From: Chitinophaga lutea
GTDB taxonomy: Bacteria; Bacteroidota; Bacteroidia; Chitinophagales; Chitinophagaceae
Length of the DNA stretch: 64,000 nt
Direction: 5' to 3'
Assembly: GCF_003813775.1 (NCBI RefSeq)
Contig: NZ_RPDH01000003.1
Coordinates: 248,001-312,000, forward strand
The first letter of the stretch is position 1, and every line of letters starts with the position of its first letter. Of the stretch, positions 44,252-50,495 are shown one piece after another. Under the pieces are notes generated by a model that was not told where the DNA came from, ran no database searches, and worked only from the letters and a program-made list of their open reading frames with translations. A program made the translations under genes and the position numbers.

Positions 44252-44479
44252 ATGGACGAAATTCGAGACGACAAATTCTTAAAGGCGCTGGGGAAGAGGG
44301 TGAGAGCCCTCCGCCATGCAACCGGTATGTCCGATCGTGATTTCGCCAACACCGCCGGCATCGCCGCCTCCCAGGTCAACCGCATCGACAAAGGAGAGCT
44401 CGACGTGAAAATCTGTACCCTCCGGGCCATTGCGCAGGCGCTGGATATTCCTCTCTCTGAATTGTTCCGTGGACTTTAA
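44252..44479 (+). CDS. XRE-family regulator, probable lysogeny repressor
   Basis: 75 residues with one HTH_3 domain: LGKRVRALRHATGMSDRDFANTAGIAASQVNRIDKGELDVKICTLRAIAQAL. It starts right after a palindromic operator between two divergent promoters, a typical arrangement for self-regulation. It converges with the integrase gene (4-base overlap). It lacks the CI-type C-terminal domain, so SOS cleavage is unlikely. Confidence 0.85.
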   Translation: MDEIRDDKFLKALGKRVRALRHATGMSDRDFANTAGIAASQVNRIDKGELDVKICTLRAIAQALDIPLSELFRGL

Positions 44480-45681
44480 ATCTCCCGGCTGTTTTCCACC
44501 GCCTTTCTGTTTATCACGCAGCCCAAGTCGCGCAAATACTGCATGGTTTGCTCCAAAGACGCATGCCTGAATAATTGCATAATTGCATATGGGTCTACAC
44601 CTGCATTGGCTAAGTGTATGCCGCGGGTGTGCTTCCAGTTATAGAGCTTTTTGCTTTCATCGATTTTCAGTTTCTCCCGGTATGGCCGGTATTTCGTAGC
44701 ATAGTGGTTGCTGCTCGCCGGCACTGGGCCCGGTCGGTCACCCTTTCCGAAAACATACCATTCGAGTGGTAATTTGTCCAATTTCTGCGCTAAAAAAAAC
44801 CGCTTCAATATCGGGTCAAGAGGCACGTAGTCTTCTCTTCGGGCTTTGGTCCCCTCCGGACACAGGAGCAGCAAATCTCTGTCAAACAGGATATTCTTTA
44901 TCTTGAAGGCTCGCATTTCTTCCTTGCTGCGCACTGCAGCATAATAACAGGTCATGATAATCCCCTCCATGTAGACATCGTTAGCGGACCGGACAAGGGC
45001 AAGCATGTCATTGAGCTCCTGGTCGGTATATGTCGATGGCTTATTCTCCACGACTTCCCGCTGATCGGCACCTTTGATCGGGTTTTCTGGTATTATCCTC
45101 CCGTTCTTTTTTTCAGCGAGCCAGTTCAGGATCGTTTCGGTATACAGCAAGTAATTGTTGTAAGTCTTATTCTCCCAGTTGTTTTTTGTTGCTTCGTCCT
45201 TCAGAATAGTTAGAAGTTGTACTGCAGTAATGTTTGCAGCTGGCACCAGCAGCATGCCGTTTTCATTCAGCCAGGATTTAATAAAGTTTGCAGTCGTTGT
45301 ATATGCGCTCATTGTGGATTTCGATTTTCCCTGCTCCTTTTTTTCGGCTAGGAAGAGATTTACACCCTGAACCATGGTGAATCGGCTACGGTCGCCTGCA
45401 GCCTCAGCTGCGGCCTGCTTACTTGTTTCTTCTACCCATAAGTTAAGTTTCTCCTCTTCATCATAGGGGCTATATCCGTTCTGCAACGAAAGATTAACGG
45501 CATCGCGGAGATTTTTGGCGTAGTTTACTTTTTCCTCACCCTTAAACAGGTTGATGTCTTCGTACACCTTAAACCGTTCAAACTTGCCGGTGAATGGGTG
45601 TATGAACGAGTAAAACACATACCATTTTTTTACGCTGAGGTCGAGCGTTTCGGGGTAAATTTTTGCGGGGCGATATTGCAT
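44476..45681 (-). CDS. int: Tyrosine recombinase, phage integrase
   Basis: 401 residues from the ATG at 45681; an upstream in-frame ATG at 45834 would run through the tRNA and is rejected. The N-terminal arm-binding domain and SAM-like core-binding domain (about 120-215) precede the catalytic domain with Arg in CYYAAVRSKEEM, His and Arg in WKHTRGIHL, His in LFRHASLEQ and the nucleophile Tyr in MQYLRDLG near the C-terminus. Inserts the phage into the tRNA-Leu gene next door. It is the closest gene to the likely attachment site. Confidence 0.9.
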   Translation of the reverse strand: MQYRPAKIYPETLDLSVKKWYVFYSFIHPFTGKFERFKVYEDINLFKGEEKVNYAKNLRDAVNLSLQNGYSPYDEEEKLNLWVEETSKQAAAEAAGDRSRFTMVQGVNLFLAEKKEQGKSKSTMSAYTTTANFIKSWLNENGMLLVPAANITAVQLLTILKDEATKNNWENKTYNNYLLYTETILNWLAEKKNGRIIPENPIKGADQREVVENKPSTYTDQELNDMLALVRSANDVYMEGIIMTCYYAAVRSKEEMRAFKIKNILFDRDLLLLCPEGTKARREDYVPLDPILKRFFLAQKLDKLPLEWYVFGKGDRPGPVPASSNHYATKYRPYREKLKIDESKKLYNWKHTRGIHLANAGVDPYAIMQLFRHASLEQTMQYLRDLGCVINRKAVENSREI

Positions 45682-45776: not shown

Positions 45777-45779
45777 GAG

Positions 45780-45820
45780 TGCCCAGAACTGGATTCGAAC
45801 CAGCACACCGTTGCCGGCGC
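45780..45820. other. Likely attachment site (attR side), 3' half of tRNA-Leu
   Basis: The integrase gene starts 99 bases from the tRNA 3' end, and phages of this kind recombine in the 3' half of a tRNA gene, restoring it. The core repeat cannot be verified without the left junction. Confidence 0.6.
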
Positions 45821-45863
45821 TGCGACCTGAACACAGTGCGTCTACCAATTTCGCCATCTGGGC
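45780..45863 (-). tRNA. tRNA-Leu (CAG)
   Basis: A complete type II tRNA on the minus strand, 84 bases with discriminator A, no encoded CCA. Acceptor stem GCCCAGA / TCTGGGC, D-arm with AATTGGTAGACG, anticodon arm CTGTG-TTCAGGT-CGCAG giving anticodon CAG, long variable arm (GCCGGCAACGGT), T-arm CTGGTTCGAATCCAG. Confidence 0.95.
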
Positions 45864-45935: not shown

Positions 45936-46748
45936 TTATACGGCAATATTGAACTCACGCAGTGTGTCGTTCAGGCTGGTTTTCAAGTCTGTAGAGGCTT
46001 TGCGCTGACCGATGATCAAAGCGCAGGATACCTGGTATTCGCCTGCCGGGAATTTTTTCGTGTAAGTGCCGGGGATCACCACGCTGCGGGCCGGTACGCG
46101 GCCTTTGTATTCGATCGGCTCGGGACCGCTCACGTCGATGATTTTGGTGCTCTGGGTTAGTACCACGTTAGCGCCCAGTACCGCTTCTTTTTCCACATGT
46201 ACGCCTTCCACCACAATGCAGCGGGAACCTACGAACACGCCGTCTTCGATGATCACGGGGCTGGCCTGCAGGGGCTCCAGTACGCCGCCGATGCCCACAC
46301 CGCCGCTCAGGTGCACGTGTTTGCCGATCTGTGCGCAGGAACCAACGGTGGCCCAGGTGTCCACCATGGTGCCCTCGTCTACATAAGCGCCGATATTCAC
46401 ATAAGAAGGCATCAGGATGGCGCCTCTGGCGATGAATGCGCCGTAACGGGCCACAGCATGCGGTACCACGCGTACGCCCAGCTCTTTATAGTTGGTTTTG
46501 AGCTTCATTTTATCGTGGAACTCGAAGGGAGGCAGTTCCATGGTTTCCATCGGCTGTATGGAAAAATACATCAGGATGGCCTGTTTTACCCATTCGTTCA
46601 CCTTCCAGCCGTCGGCTGTCGGCTCCGCCACACGTAATTTACCCTTATCTACGGCTTCTATAACGGCTTTCACGGCATCGGAATACTGTGATTGCTGTAA
46701 CAGGCTGCGGTCGTTCCACGCAGCCTGGATTTGTTGCTGTACATCCAT
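45936..46748 (-). CDS. dapD: Tetrahydrodipicolinate N-succinyltransferase
   Basis: 270 residues, the usual length. Left-handed beta-helix made of hexapeptide repeats (GAFIARGAILMPSYVNIGAYVDEGTMVDTWATVGSCAQIGKHVHLSGGVGIGG...), of the family that transfers succinyl from succinyl-CoA to tetrahydrodipicolinate in lysine and meso-diaminopimelate synthesis. The C-terminal VIPGTYTKKFPAGEYQVSCALIIGQRKASTD block is typical. Cytoplasmic trimer. It has its own promoter. Its end lies 73 bases from the tRNA. Confidence 0.95.
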   Translation of the reverse strand: MDVQQQIQAAWNDRSLLQQSQYSDAVKAVIEAVDKGKLRVAEPTADGWKVNEWVKQAILMYFSIQPMETMELPPFEFHDKMKLKTNYKELGVRVVPHAVARYGAFIARGAILMPSYVNIGAYVDEGTMVDTWATVGSCAQIGKHVHLSGGVGIGGVLEPLQASPVIIEDGVFVGSRCIVVEGVHVEKEAVLGANVVLTQSTKIIDVSGPEPIEYKGRVPARSVVIPGTYTKKFPAGEYQVSCALIIGQRKASTDLKTSLNDTLREFNIAV

Positions 46749-46802: not shown

Positions 46803-47786
46803 TCATTCCCTTCTTTCTGCCGCATTTAACAATATCGCGGCCAGGTGGCGGGAAATGGCGTTGCTGCAAAGCCGGTCGAGCCAGAAAAATTCACCGGCGG
46901 CATTGATCTCGAGAAAGTAATATTTTCCGTCGGGGGTGAGGATGAGGTCGATGGCGCCGTAGTTGAGCCCGTAGGCGTCCATCATGGACAGGAGGGAATT
47001 GGCCACGTCTTCCCGGAGGGGATAGGGTTTCCAGTTGTTGACGAGGGCGGCGCCTTCTTTCCGCCAGTCGGTGGCGGCGCCGGGCAGCTGCTGGGAATCG
47101 ATGGCGAAGGAAAACACCTCCCGGCCCACGATGGTGACCCGCAGTTCGAGCGCCTTCGGCAGTTTTTCCTGGAACACCATGGGGCAGTATTTCAGCTGGT
47201 CGAGCTGTGAAAGATGTTCATCCGAGATCTCGTTCGTAAACACCACATGTTCTTCGCCCTCGCGGTAAATGGCGAACGAGCTCTGCATTTTGGCGATCAC
47301 GGGCCCGCCGGTAGCGGCCAGGAACTGCTGTAGCTGCTGCGGGGAATTGGTGATGCAGGTTTCAGGCACCAGCAGGCCGTGTTTGACGGCCATGCGCAGT
47401 TGCTCTTCCTTGCTGTCGAGGCGGCGGTACACGCTGTACCGCTCCAGCTGGAAACAGGGGAGGCCTTCGAGCATGCCGAAGAGCGTGCGCCGCACCTCAC
47501 CGAGCGCCGAGCTCAGGAACTCCTTGTCCAGCAAAGGTTCAAGCCCTTTCCCGATGTGGTAGCTGCGCCGGTACCAGACGGCTGTAATATCGTCGAGGCG
47601 CTCGTCGCCGAGCCAAAGCGCCCAGCGGCCGCCCTGCCAGGTGGTCGTTAAAGTGAGGTCGGCGGGGTAACGGTCCACGTCGAAACGGACGCTCTGCCCG
47701 CCCAATTCGGCAATGGCCTGTATAACGGTGTCGGCGGCCTCGTTGTCGGCCGTATGGGTGATGATCAGCACTTTCCCTTCAGGCAT
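46803..47786 (-). CDS. ATP-grasp ligase, MdnC/MvdD-like (ester-forming)
   Basis: 327 residues from the ATG at 47786, which overlaps the previous ligase gene by 8 bases. Typical graspetide ligase: N-terminal LIITHTADNEAADTV and FDVDRYPADLTL, ITAVWYRRSYH, a precursor-binding part, then the ATP-grasp core with KMQSSFAIYREG, CPMVFQEKLPKALELRVTIVG, DWRKEGAALV, LNYGAIDLILTPDGKYYFLEINAAGEFFW (metal-binding Asp, Glu and Asn). Phrases such as PKALELRVTIVG and NYGAIDLILTPDG match MdnC of microviridin synthesis as I recall it, which forms the two ester links. Cytoplasmic. Confidence 0.8.
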   Translation of the reverse strand: MPEGKVLIITHTADNEAADTVIQAIAELGGQSVRFDVDRYPADLTLTTTWQGGRWALWLGDERLDDITAVWYRRSYHIGKGLEPLLDKEFLSSALGEVRRTLFGMLEGLPCFQLERYSVYRRLDSKEEQLRMAVKHGLLVPETCITNSPQQLQQFLAATGGPVIAKMQSSFAIYREGEEHVVFTNEISDEHLSQLDQLKYCPMVFQEKLPKALELRVTIVGREVFSFAIDSQQLPGAATDWRKEGAALVNNWKPYPLREDVANSLLSMMDAYGLNYGAIDLILTPDGKYYFLEINAAGEFFWLDRLCSNAISRHLAAILLNAAERRE

Positions 47787-48741
47787 GGGTGATCTTTTGT
47801 ACAAGTTTTTCAGCGATCGTCTCGGCTATTGGAAAACCTAAATATTTCTGCAGCATGCCCCACTCGCCCTGGGGGTTCACTTCGAGGAATACATACTGCC
47901 CGTCCGGTTGCACGATCATGTCTATTGCGCCGAAGGGCAGCCCCAGCAGTTGCATCAGCCGCGTGATCTTTTCTTCCTGCGCGGGCGGTAGCACGAAGGG
48001 CTCCCACTGTATGATGGTGGTGCTCGCCGTACGCCAGTCGGTAGTGTCCGGAGCGCGGAGGCTGCCGGTGAAAAACTCGCCGTCTACATACACGATCCGC
48101 AGCTCCCGGTCTTTGGGGATGTATTGCTGCAGAATCATGGGGCAGGCGGAAAGCGACTCCAGCATGGGCACATCTTCCTTGCGCAGGCGGGTGGTGGGGA
48201 AGAAGTCGCCGCGCCCGTCCATCGTTTTCGAGAGGGCGCCGTGCAGCTTCACCACTACGTCGCCGTTATGGTCGTCGTAAAACCGGATGGCGTCTTCTGC
48301 ATGGTTGCTGAAGAGCGTTTGCGGCACTGCCAAACCTGCGGCCTGTGCGGCGGTGAGCTGCAGCAGCTTGTTGCCGCTCACGGCATGGTCGATGTCGATG
48401 CGGTTGATCCAGGGTACGTCGAGCGAGTCGAGGAAAATGTGCAGCGAGGTATTGTATTCTTTGACAAAAGCGGGCACATAGGCGGGATCAAGGGAGGCAG
48501 GCACTTTCAGTTCCCATAATTTACGGTACCACACGCCGGTGATGTCGGCCGCATCTATCAGCGTATTGCCATGTTCCAGCTGGTATTGCGGCCCCGCGGC
48601 GGTGAGGCGGTAGCGCAACCGGTAACGGGTGCCGAACTCGTCTGAATTGAAGCGGAAACTGGGATACCCCAGTTGTTCGAGGTGTTGCTGTACTAAATCG
48701 ATGGTGTAAGTATCCTGAGAATGCGTAATGCAGAGAATCAT
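47779..48741 (-). CDS. ATP-grasp ligase, MdnB/MvdC-like (amide-forming)
   Basis: 320 residues. N-terminal ITHSQDTYTIDLVQQHL and FRFNSDEFGTRYRL, ITGVWYRKLWELKVP, then the core: VVVKLHGALSK, CPMILQQYIPKDRELRIVYV, GLPFGAIDMIVQPDGQYVFLEVNPQGEWGMLQKYLGFPI. The ending EVNPQGEWGMLQ is the form I associate with the MvdC/MdnB branch, which closes the Lys amide after the esters are made. Which of the two ligases does which step is inferred from sequence style. It lies 74 bases after the second precursor gene and is coupled to the other ligase. Confidence 0.8.
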   Translation of the reverse strand: MILCITHSQDTYTIDLVQQHLEQLGYPSFRFNSDEFGTRYRLRYRLTAAGPQYQLEHGNTLIDAADITGVWYRKLWELKVPASLDPAYVPAFVKEYNTSLHIFLDSLDVPWINRIDIDHAVSGNKLLQLTAAQAAGLAVPQTLFSNHAEDAIRFYDDHNGDVVVKLHGALSKTMDGRGDFFPTTRLRKEDVPMLESLSACPMILQQYIPKDRELRIVYVDGEFFTGSLRAPDTTDWRTASTTIIQWEPFVLPPAQEEKITRLMQLLGLPFGAIDMIVQPDGQYVFLEVNPQGEWGMLQKYLGFPIAETIAEKLVQKITHA

Positions 48742-48815
48742 GTATGGTTCCTATAAAAAACAAGCAACAGCCGCAGCCATTGCTTGCAAATGATCAATGT
48801 GAAGGGGAAGGCAGC

Positions 48816-48995
48816 TTACAGGAGCCACCATTCCTCATCCCCGTCTGAAGGGTATTTGTGCGTCTGATCGGGGGCATCCGCCAGCTTGCTCGTCCAGATG
48901 CCGGACTCGCGGCGGTTTTTCTCTTCTTCCGCTTTCGTTTGCGATTCGAGGAATTGCGCAAAGAATGGCTTTAATACCTGTTCATTGGGTTTCAT
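48816..48995 (-). CDS. Microviridin-type graspetide precursor 2 (59 residues)
   Basis: Too short for usual gene cut-offs. Leader: KPFFAQFLESQ (residues 9-19), the conserved helix recognised by microviridin ligases (PFFARFL in cyanobacteria). Core: QTHKYPSDGDEEWWLL (44-59), that is T-x-K-Y-P-S-D-x-D-E. By analogy Thr45-Asp51 and Ser50-Asp53 would form esters and Lys47-Glu54 an amide. The C-terminal tail EWWLL is longer and more aromatic than in precursor 1. No double-Gly export signal is seen. Same strand and order as the ligases. Confidence 0.85.
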   Translation of the reverse strand: MKPNEQVLKPFFAQFLESQTKAEEEKNRRESGIWTSKLADAPDQTHKYPSDGDEEWWLL

Positions 48996-49045
48996 AATCT
49001 GATATGTTTTTTAGTTACTGATAAAGTTTGAAAGTAAAGCTGATG

Positions 49046-49198
49046 TTACACTTCATCACCGTCCGAAGGATATTTCAATGTGTGCTCTATATGGTCCCAG
49101 ATCTTCAGGGTGAATATCGGAGGTTCCTGCTGTGTCTTACGCTGTTTTTCCAGGAACTGTGCAAAAAATGGTTTCACCGGATTGGTGGAGGGTTGCAT
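49046..49198 (-). CDS. Microviridin-type graspetide precursor 1 (50 residues)
   Basis: Too short for usual gene cut-offs. Leader motif KPFFAQFLEKQ (9-19) is nearly identical to that of precursor 2, and the core TLKYPSDGDEV (40-50) ends the protein. Expected links: Thr40-Asp46, Ser45-Asp48 (esters), Lys42-Glu49 (amide). It lies 50 bases before precursor 2, so both and the two ligases form one operon of four genes. Upstream bases show only a weak -7-like element. A protease inhibitor is the likely product type, as for known microviridins. Confidence 0.88.
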   Translation of the reverse strand: MQPSTNPVKPFFAQFLEKQRKTQQEPPIFTLKIWDHIEHTLKYPSDGDEV

Positions 49199-49322
49199 AC
49201 AGGATCGGTTTTAAGTGATGAATGCATTAAACAATGTTCCGTTAGCTCCGTGTGGCCCGACTCGTTTCCGGGCAGACAAACAATTTAGCATTTTTTACAG
49301 AAAGAAAAAAAATATTAACGAT

Positions 49323-50495
49323 GTGGCTGTGAGAAATATTATTTTGCCCCCGGACAAAACACTGCACACCTTGAACATCGGTTTCGACGCCAAAAGGGCT
49401 TTCCAGAACCGGACGGGCCTGGGGAACTACAGCCGTACCCTCATCCGTTCGCTCGCGGAAATATACCCGCAACACCAGTATTTTTTATTCGCGCCTAAAA
49501 CGAAGCCCCTGTTCCGGCCACCGGCGCACATGCCGGTCATCCTGCCCGGCAAAACCCATCACCGCCTGCTCAAATCCGTATGGAGAAGCCGCTGGATGGT
49601 CAGCGACCTGCAACAACAGCAAATCGACGTGTTTCATGGCCTCAGCGCGGAACTGCCCTTCGGCGTGCACCGCATCCCCGTGAAAACGGCCGTTACCATG
49701 CACGATCTTATTTTTGAACGATATCCGGGCCAGTACAACCCGATCGATGTGTATACTTACCGCAAAAAGGCCCGTTACGCCTGCAAACACGCCCACCGGG
49801 TGGTTGCCATCAGCGAGCAGACCAAACAGGACCTGATGCTCTTTTACGGCGTTCCTGCGGACCGTATCAGCGTCTGCTACCAGGCCTGCGACCCCGCTTT
49901 TGCCGTATTGCACCCGCAGGAGGTCATTAGCGCCATGCTACGGCAGTACGGGCTGCCGGAAAAGTATTTCCTCTACGTAGGCTCGGTGATCGAGCGGAAA
50001 AACCTGCTCCGCATCGCCGAAGCGCTGCACCAGCTGAAAGGGCGCCTCAACGTTCCCCTGGTGGTGGTGGGCGATGGCGGTAAATACAAGGAAACGGTTA
50101 AAAGTTACCTGCGGCAGAAAGGGCTGGCCCAACAGGTGATCTGGCTCAACGAAACGGCCAGTTTCACTTTTAAAGACCTGCCCGCTCTCTTCCAGGGCGC
50201 ACTGGCCCTGCTGTACCCGTCGCTCTTCGAAGGGTTCGGCATTCCCATCCTGGAGGCGCTCTGGAGCCGCACCCCCGTGATCACCTCGCAGGGATCCTGC
50301 TTCCTGGAAACGGGCGGCGACGCGGCGCTGTATGTGGATCCCCTCAGCCCGGAAGCCATTGCCGGCGCTATGGAAAGCGTATCCGAAAATGGAACATTTG
50401 TTGAGGGCATGAGGGAACGGGGATGGATGCACGCACAAAATTTCACCATCCCCAAATGCGCGGCAGCGGTCATGAACGTGTACGAAAACCTGTAA
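49323..50495 (+). CDS. Glycosyltransferase, family 4 (GT-B)
   Basis: About 390 residues. N-terminal GFDAKRAFQNRTGLGNYSRTLIR, then KKARYACKHAHRVVAISEQTKQDL and the GT4 C-terminal signature FLYVGSVIERKNLLRIAEALHQL, then SLFEGFGIPILEAL with the Glu-x(7)-Glu motif. Transfers a sugar from a nucleotide sugar, probably for surface polysaccharide. The start is uncertain: GTG 49323 or 49329 are preferred since the longer frame from 49215 crosses AT-rich DNA between the divergent operons. Not obviously linked to the graspetide genes. Confidence 0.85.
   Translation: MAVRNIILPPDKTLHTLNIGFDAKRAFQNRTGLGNYSRTLIRSLAEIYPQHQYFLFAPKTKPLFRPPAHMPVILPGKTHHRLLKSVWRSRWMVSDLQQQQIDVFHGLSAELPFGVHRIPVKTAVTMHDLIFERYPGQYNPIDVYTYRKKARYACKHAHRVVAISEQTKQDLMLFYGVPADRISVCYQACDPAFAVLHPQEVISAMLRQYGLPEKYFLYVGSVIERKNLLRIAEALHQLKGRLNVPLVVVGDGGKYKETVKSYLRQKGLAQQVIWLNETASFTFKDLPALFQGALALLYPSLFEGFGIPILEALWSRTPVITSQGSCFLETGGDAALYVDPLSPEAIAGAMESVSENGTFVEGMRERGWMHAQNFTIPKCAAAVMNVYENL

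Follow-up and report, generated by a model that had tools for sequence, protein, structure and literature searches.

We characterize four genes in the window, that is, in the whole 64-kb stretch of DNA analysed, as very probably constituting a microviridin-type (group 1 graspetide) operon of the Bacteroidota kind, an assignment of family and pathway that we base on the sequence. The operon occupies the minus strand from 49198 to 46803 and comprises two precursor genes, A1 and A2 (50 and 59 aa), together with two overlapping genes for ATP-grasp ligases. The original prediction had proposed a microviridin-type graspetide operon with two precursors; profile searches, sequence searches against solved structures and a positive control all support this proposal. 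Members of the microviridin family are ring-locked peptides that often block protein-cutting enzymes.

Precursor A1 (49046..49198) carries the leader motif KPFFAQFLE, an upstream TLKIWD unit and the core TLKYPSDGDEV; precursor A2 (48816..48995) has the same leader motif followed by a TSKLAD unit, the core THKYPSDGDEE and the tail WWLL. The two frames, with KPFFAQFLE and T-x-K-Y-P-S-D-G-D-E, were confirmed where they had been predicted, as were the gene order, the spacing and the coupling of the two ligases. A1 and A2 are 50 bases apart, and 74 bases separate A2 from the gene of the MvdC/MdnB-like ligase (47779..48741, minus strand, 320 aa), which overlaps by 8 bases the gene of the MvdD/MdnC-like ligase (46803..47786, minus strand, 327 aa). 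We took the ATG at 47786 as the start of the latter; the TTG at 47804 merely gives the mechanically longest frame. The leader and core motifs occur together in one frame at exactly two places in the 64-kb window, A1 and A2. When the window was base-shuffled 50 times no such frame arose, and we could thus rule out chance frames.

Both peptides passed the precursor-family check that had been proposed for them. With NF033738, the NCBI microviridin model, A2 scored 52.9 bits and A1 46.2 bits (cut-off 26), and with PF12559 of Pfam they scored 29.9 and 24.2 bits, respectively (cut-off 21); in a search of the whole genome with NF033738 they were the only matches. Each has a PFFAxFLE leader helix and a core of the TxKYPSDxxE type. 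It had also been suggested that such short genes could be missed by automatic gene calling. This holds only in part: 7 of 20 relatives of A2, all seven from Chitinophaga, bear the NCBI name ‘microviridin/marinostatin family tricyclic proteinase inhibitor’; for the A1 type, the Chitinophaga alhagiae copy was called as a protein of 75 aa with no name, and a relative from Paraflavitalea soli (P0025) is publicly labelled ‘serine endopeptidase’, a label possibly taken by mistake from the Pfam title ‘Serine endopeptidase inhibitors’. The variable core residue is Leu in A1 and His in A2. In cyanobacterial microviridins, Leu in this position goes with elastase- or chymotrypsin-like targets, which by analogy suggests targets of this kind for the A1 product.

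The ligases were expected to resemble MdnB/MvdC and MdnC/MvdD, and profiles, searches against solved structures and the positive control agree with this. For the first ligase the best family was TIGR04185 (MvdC) with 352.7 bits, versus 220.7 bits for TIGR04184; for the second it was TIGR04184 (MvdD) with 409.3 bits, versus 245.5 bits for TIGR04185. The models originally named for the comparison were TIGR04183 and TIGR04184; the correct pair is TIGR04184 and TIGR04185, which match best, with scores under the curated cut-offs of 475 and 425 bits. The nearest solved structures by sequence were CdnC (7mgv, 361.4 bits) for the MvdD-like enzyme and AMdnB (7m4s, 230 bits) for the MvdC-like one. As a control we scored the Chryseobacterium gregarium pair (L046), which at full length also fell narrowly below the cut-offs, CdnB with 418.5 against 425 and CdnC with 470.6 against 475 (418.6 and 470.8 bits for the matched parts alone). 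Since this control misses too, the curated cut-offs are strict for Bacteroidota. The window ligases lie further below them than the Chryseobacterium pair does; still, the TIGR04184 cut-off was reached in none of 60 genomes of the genus, and function remains compatible with such scores because the C. gregarium pair and all of these genomes miss as well.

It had been stated in advance that ligases from non-graspetide ATP-grasp families would speak against the assignment, and the microviridin models came out best. A different graspetide group, either grasp-with-SPASM or the TIGR04187 group, with the likeness of the precursors being incidental, could be argued for from secondary matches of both ligases to TIGR04187 and TIGR04192. 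However, these matches are far weaker (196 and 100–113 bits versus 353 and 409 bits), both precursors pass the microviridin model, and the two other graspetide-type loci of this genome look different; we rejected these groups and regard such an origin as exceedingly improbable. When plasmids were searched for the MvdC protein, 71 records came up, and the best place of each was below 60% identity among the matches listed (10 of the 71).

A leader helix of the PFFAQFLE type is established in the family as docking on the ligases and activating them. From the genes, the motifs, the family and the conservation we infer the linkages, cleavage, export and activity as follows. The PFFAQFLE helix of each precursor would dock on both ligases and activate them. 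The MvdD-like enzyme, the predicted ester ligase, would then form side-chain esters, Thr–Asp and Ser–Asp/Glu, in the TxKYPSDxDE core, and probably also a separate Thr–Asp ester within the TxxxxD unit upstream of it; next, the predicted amide ligase, the MvdC-like enzyme, would join the core Lys to a C-terminal Glu. The leader would be removed by an unlinked protease and the product exported. Judging from what the family usually does, the product is probably a serine protease inhibitor.

The original prediction described the product as tricyclic. The core does fit the classical three-ring pattern, yet this description is probably incomplete, as the upstream unit predicts a fourth ring. The motif conserved in chryseoviridins is TxxxxDxxxTxKxPSDxD[DE], according to phylogenomic work on these peptides (PMC8939145). 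TLKIWD of A1 and TSKLAD of A2 stand in the place of the chryseoviridin unit, and both precursors read TxxxxDxxxxTxKYPSDGDE; they miss the exact motif by a spacer one residue longer, the rest being identical. To count how often the unit occurs, we used the distinct precursors matching the leader and core patterns in 119 loci and 29 proteins: 152 in a Chryseobacterium/Flavobacterium set (which includes one Flavobacterium, L014, and one Weeksellaceae MAG, L044) and 48 outside it. No precursors were found by pattern in locus L074 and in the loci from L100 onward (the genus loci listed being L085–L100). A [TS]xxxxD unit 3–5 residues before the core was present in 43 of the 48 precursors; when the linkers were shuffled 1000 times, the mean was 2.0 and the maximum 7. 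Relatives were counted separately here, and many of the 48 have one almost identical block in common, so that they do not count as independent. In the other set the unit was present in 109 of 152 precursors, versus a mean of 9.7 in shuffles. The five precursors without it are one each from L086 and L088, both from L092, and P0024; one of the two from L092 carries TGKLID, which fails solely by a longer spacer.

According to what the 2021 chryseoviridin structure paper is said to report, CdnC forms single ester rings of this kind in chryseoviridin. Given a chryseoviridin-like unit in both precursors and in 43 of the 48 relatives, we consider it rather probable that the products encoded in the window have a fourth ring. 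The monoisotopic neutral masses calculated for the whole precursors are 5938.019 (A1) and 6977.404 (A2) without modification, 5883.988 and 6923.372 with three waters lost, and 5865.977 and 6905.361 with four waters lost. The spacer between unit and core is 4 residues in 36 of the 43 precursors and 3 in seven, versus 3 residues in 106 of the 109 in the Chryseobacterium/Flavobacterium set; so the ring pattern of CdnC may not carry over. One may suppose instead that the products have the classical three rings only, and that TxxxxD stays linear, either within the leader or in an N-terminal tail that is trimmed. The core alone fits the tricyclic pattern, NCBI names the relatives tricyclic, the spacer is unlike that of chryseoviridin and a few relatives have no unit; also, class I microviridins, N3–N9 among them, vary at the N-terminus according to PMC13039773. 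The unit, however, is kept at a fixed ring size in those 43 precursors across the A1, A2, Niastella and Paraflavitalea types, in which the other linker residues differ. We consider three rings possible but somewhat doubtful.

Neither A1 nor A2 has a double glycine before the core, the mark of class III. Overall, GG between leader and core was seen in 1 of the 48 precursors versus all 152 of the Chryseobacterium/Flavobacterium set. A search with two C39 exporters from this genome gave no match within the window, and a Pfam C39 search of the genome gave six matches on contigs C1 and C2 and none on C3, the contig of the operon; a local C39 exporter was therefore rejected. Among 80 loci compared, these two exporters matched immediately after the MvdD gene in six, each from Chryseobacterium, and gave weak, partial matches in L037 and L059; the 10 Chitinophaga and Niastella loci had no match. 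According to PMC13039773, a paper from 2026, class III precursors, mostly from Bacteroidetes, have double glycines, class I precursors are mostly without GG and without a protease in the cluster, and the leader in Nostoc is cut by NosP, an M1 protease unlinked to the cluster. As the precursors have no GG, and as neither the window nor the rest of contig C3 showed a C39 exporter, we predict a leader protease unlinked to the operon. M1 peptidase matches, candidates for a NosP-like enzyme, number seven in this genome, all on C1 and C2, and none stands out.

The same genome holds two other sets of genes of graspetide type. On contig C2 (L120:3197-7828), a graspetide-type ligase (115.8 bits with TIGR04184) lies close to a C39 exporter gene and to a short frame containing GG (IVGGSAG), and the three probably form a separate graspetide locus. 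The second set (L121:2482-8695), resembling a grasp-with-SPASM locus, consists of an HlyD protein, a C39-type exporter, a SPASM protein, a short frame with GG and a ligase with 79.7 bits for TIGR04184 and no match in Pfam.

The operon is located between a divergent gene of a family 4 glycosyltransferase (49215..50495, plus strand, start codon uncertain), which is the upstream border of the site and probably outside the pathway, and the housekeeping gene dapD (45936..46748, minus strand), the downstream border, also outside the pathway and 54 bases from the MvdD gene. In a tool-drawn sample of 60 genomes of the genus, an MvdD match of >290 bits was found in 16, including the window's own genome and one (G035) in which the match is spread over two frames. 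It lies within ∼2 kb of a Sua5/YrdC gene in 12 of the 16 carriers and elsewhere in G008, G024, G046 and G049. We read 30 Sua5 sites from the sampled genomes, 10 from carriers and 20 from non-carriers. At 18 of the 20 non-carrier sites (all except L149 and L157) the glycosyltransferase gene and dapD are adjacent, within ∼140 bases; thus, the operon is an insert that is present or absent at one site, by gain or by loss. Eight 20-kb loci contain dapD, and in L010, L013 and L060 among them this gene is ∼6.7 kb further off.

Beyond dapD, a tyrosine recombinase gene (44479-45681) is situated directly downstream of tRNA-Leu(CAG) (45779-45863), an arrangement that resembles an integrated element; the window contains no second copy of the tRNA 3′-end, hence no far end of the element was found. 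That the operon is a part of this element was rejected on account of the missing copy and of a site common to relatives. In G035 (L099) the Sua5 gene is split between frames just as MvdD is; in L060 the MvdD match is shortened, and a precursor frame in L060 and L083 is without the usual start. Indel errors of assembly are one possible cause of these split and shortened frames.

In the public species set the nearest locus is that of C. alhagiae (87% for MvdD). The dN/dS values against this species were 0.14 for A1 and 0.08 for A2, both rough as the genes are short and offer few sites, 0.03 for MvdC and 0.10 for MvdD, with 0.03 for dapD; codon changes in all four operon genes are mostly silent. 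If the operon were decaying and no longer functional, this could account for presence in just 16 of the 60 genomes and for the fact that neither an exporter nor a protease was found beside the genes in the C39 searches; with four intact frames and mostly silent changes between species, we consider decay very unlikely.

Among nine Chitinophaga loci searched with looser motifs, two (L005, L007) contained A1 along with A2 and seven contained A2 alone. With the same motifs, a Niastella locus (L012) showed two precursors; the genus loci L089, L086, L088 and L092 have precursor pairs of another kind. Several of the short genus loci stop close to A2, and an A1 may have been lost at their ends.

The Chitinophaga branch may have a product type of its own, with four rings (three esters and one amide) that join a chryseoviridin-like ring to a microviridin cage over a four-residue hinge, with an unlinked protease not directed at GG and with a pair of paralogous precursors in one operon whose products would be inhibitors that differ in specificity. 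We hold this composite reading tentatively, with slightly less than even weight; the rarity of the A1/A2 pair (two of nine Chitinophaga loci) weakens it.

Loci of this kind are already known in the genus, and the find is sound but ordinary; it leaves the understanding of the microviridin family unchanged. What it contributes is a further conserved microviridin locus of Bacteroidota, whose two precursors differ in the variable core residue (Leu, His), and it offers a testable prediction of a fourth ring as well as a present/absent site within one genus. Being without a double-glycine site, it also raises the question of how leaders of this kind are cleaved off in bacteria other than cyanobacteria.

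A literature search pairing Chitinophaga with graspetide gave no match, whereas pairing it with microviridin did. One of the precursors, in a frame starting near base 28 of locus L092 (genome G049), contains the 11-mer TTLKFPSDWDD, for which we computed the formula C60H79N13O18 after loss of three waters. We take this to be the formula of the elastase inhibitor FR901451, so that the L092 genome may belong to C. japonensis or a relative. According to PMC13039773, which cites Wang et al. (2022, ACS Chem Biol 17:3489) for chitinoviridins and FR901451, the chitinoviridins of C. japonensis have been characterized; these come from the same genus and have a longer core peptide that is microviridin-like at its C-terminal end. 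Loci of the L092 type occupy other genomic positions and encode FPSD cores, and the second precursor of L092 has GG, unlike the window, with its YPSD cores and no GG.

With the chryseoviridin system of C. gregarium (CdnA/CdnB/CdnC) the operon shares the order precursors–MvdC–MvdD (L046), CdnC as the best solved ester ligase and the TxxxxD unit before the cage core. The chryseoviridin precursors differ in being longer, with several TxxxxD units, GG and a spacer of 3 rather than 4 residues, and L046 encodes four of them versus two in the window. With cyanobacterial class I microviridins (Mdn/Mvd) the operon shares the PFFARFL-type leader, the TxKYPSDxxE core and the MvdC/MvdD pair, and also, according to PMC13039773, a precursor mostly without GG and a cluster without a protease. 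It differs from class I in the extra TxxxxD unit, and in that no GNAT-type acetyltransferase was found among ten window proteins scanned. Class III of Bacteroidota has a longer core of which only the C-terminal part is microviridin-like, and in the window precursors a TxxxxD unit lies upstream of the core. They resemble the Bacteroidota type in ring anatomy and class I in the absence of GG.
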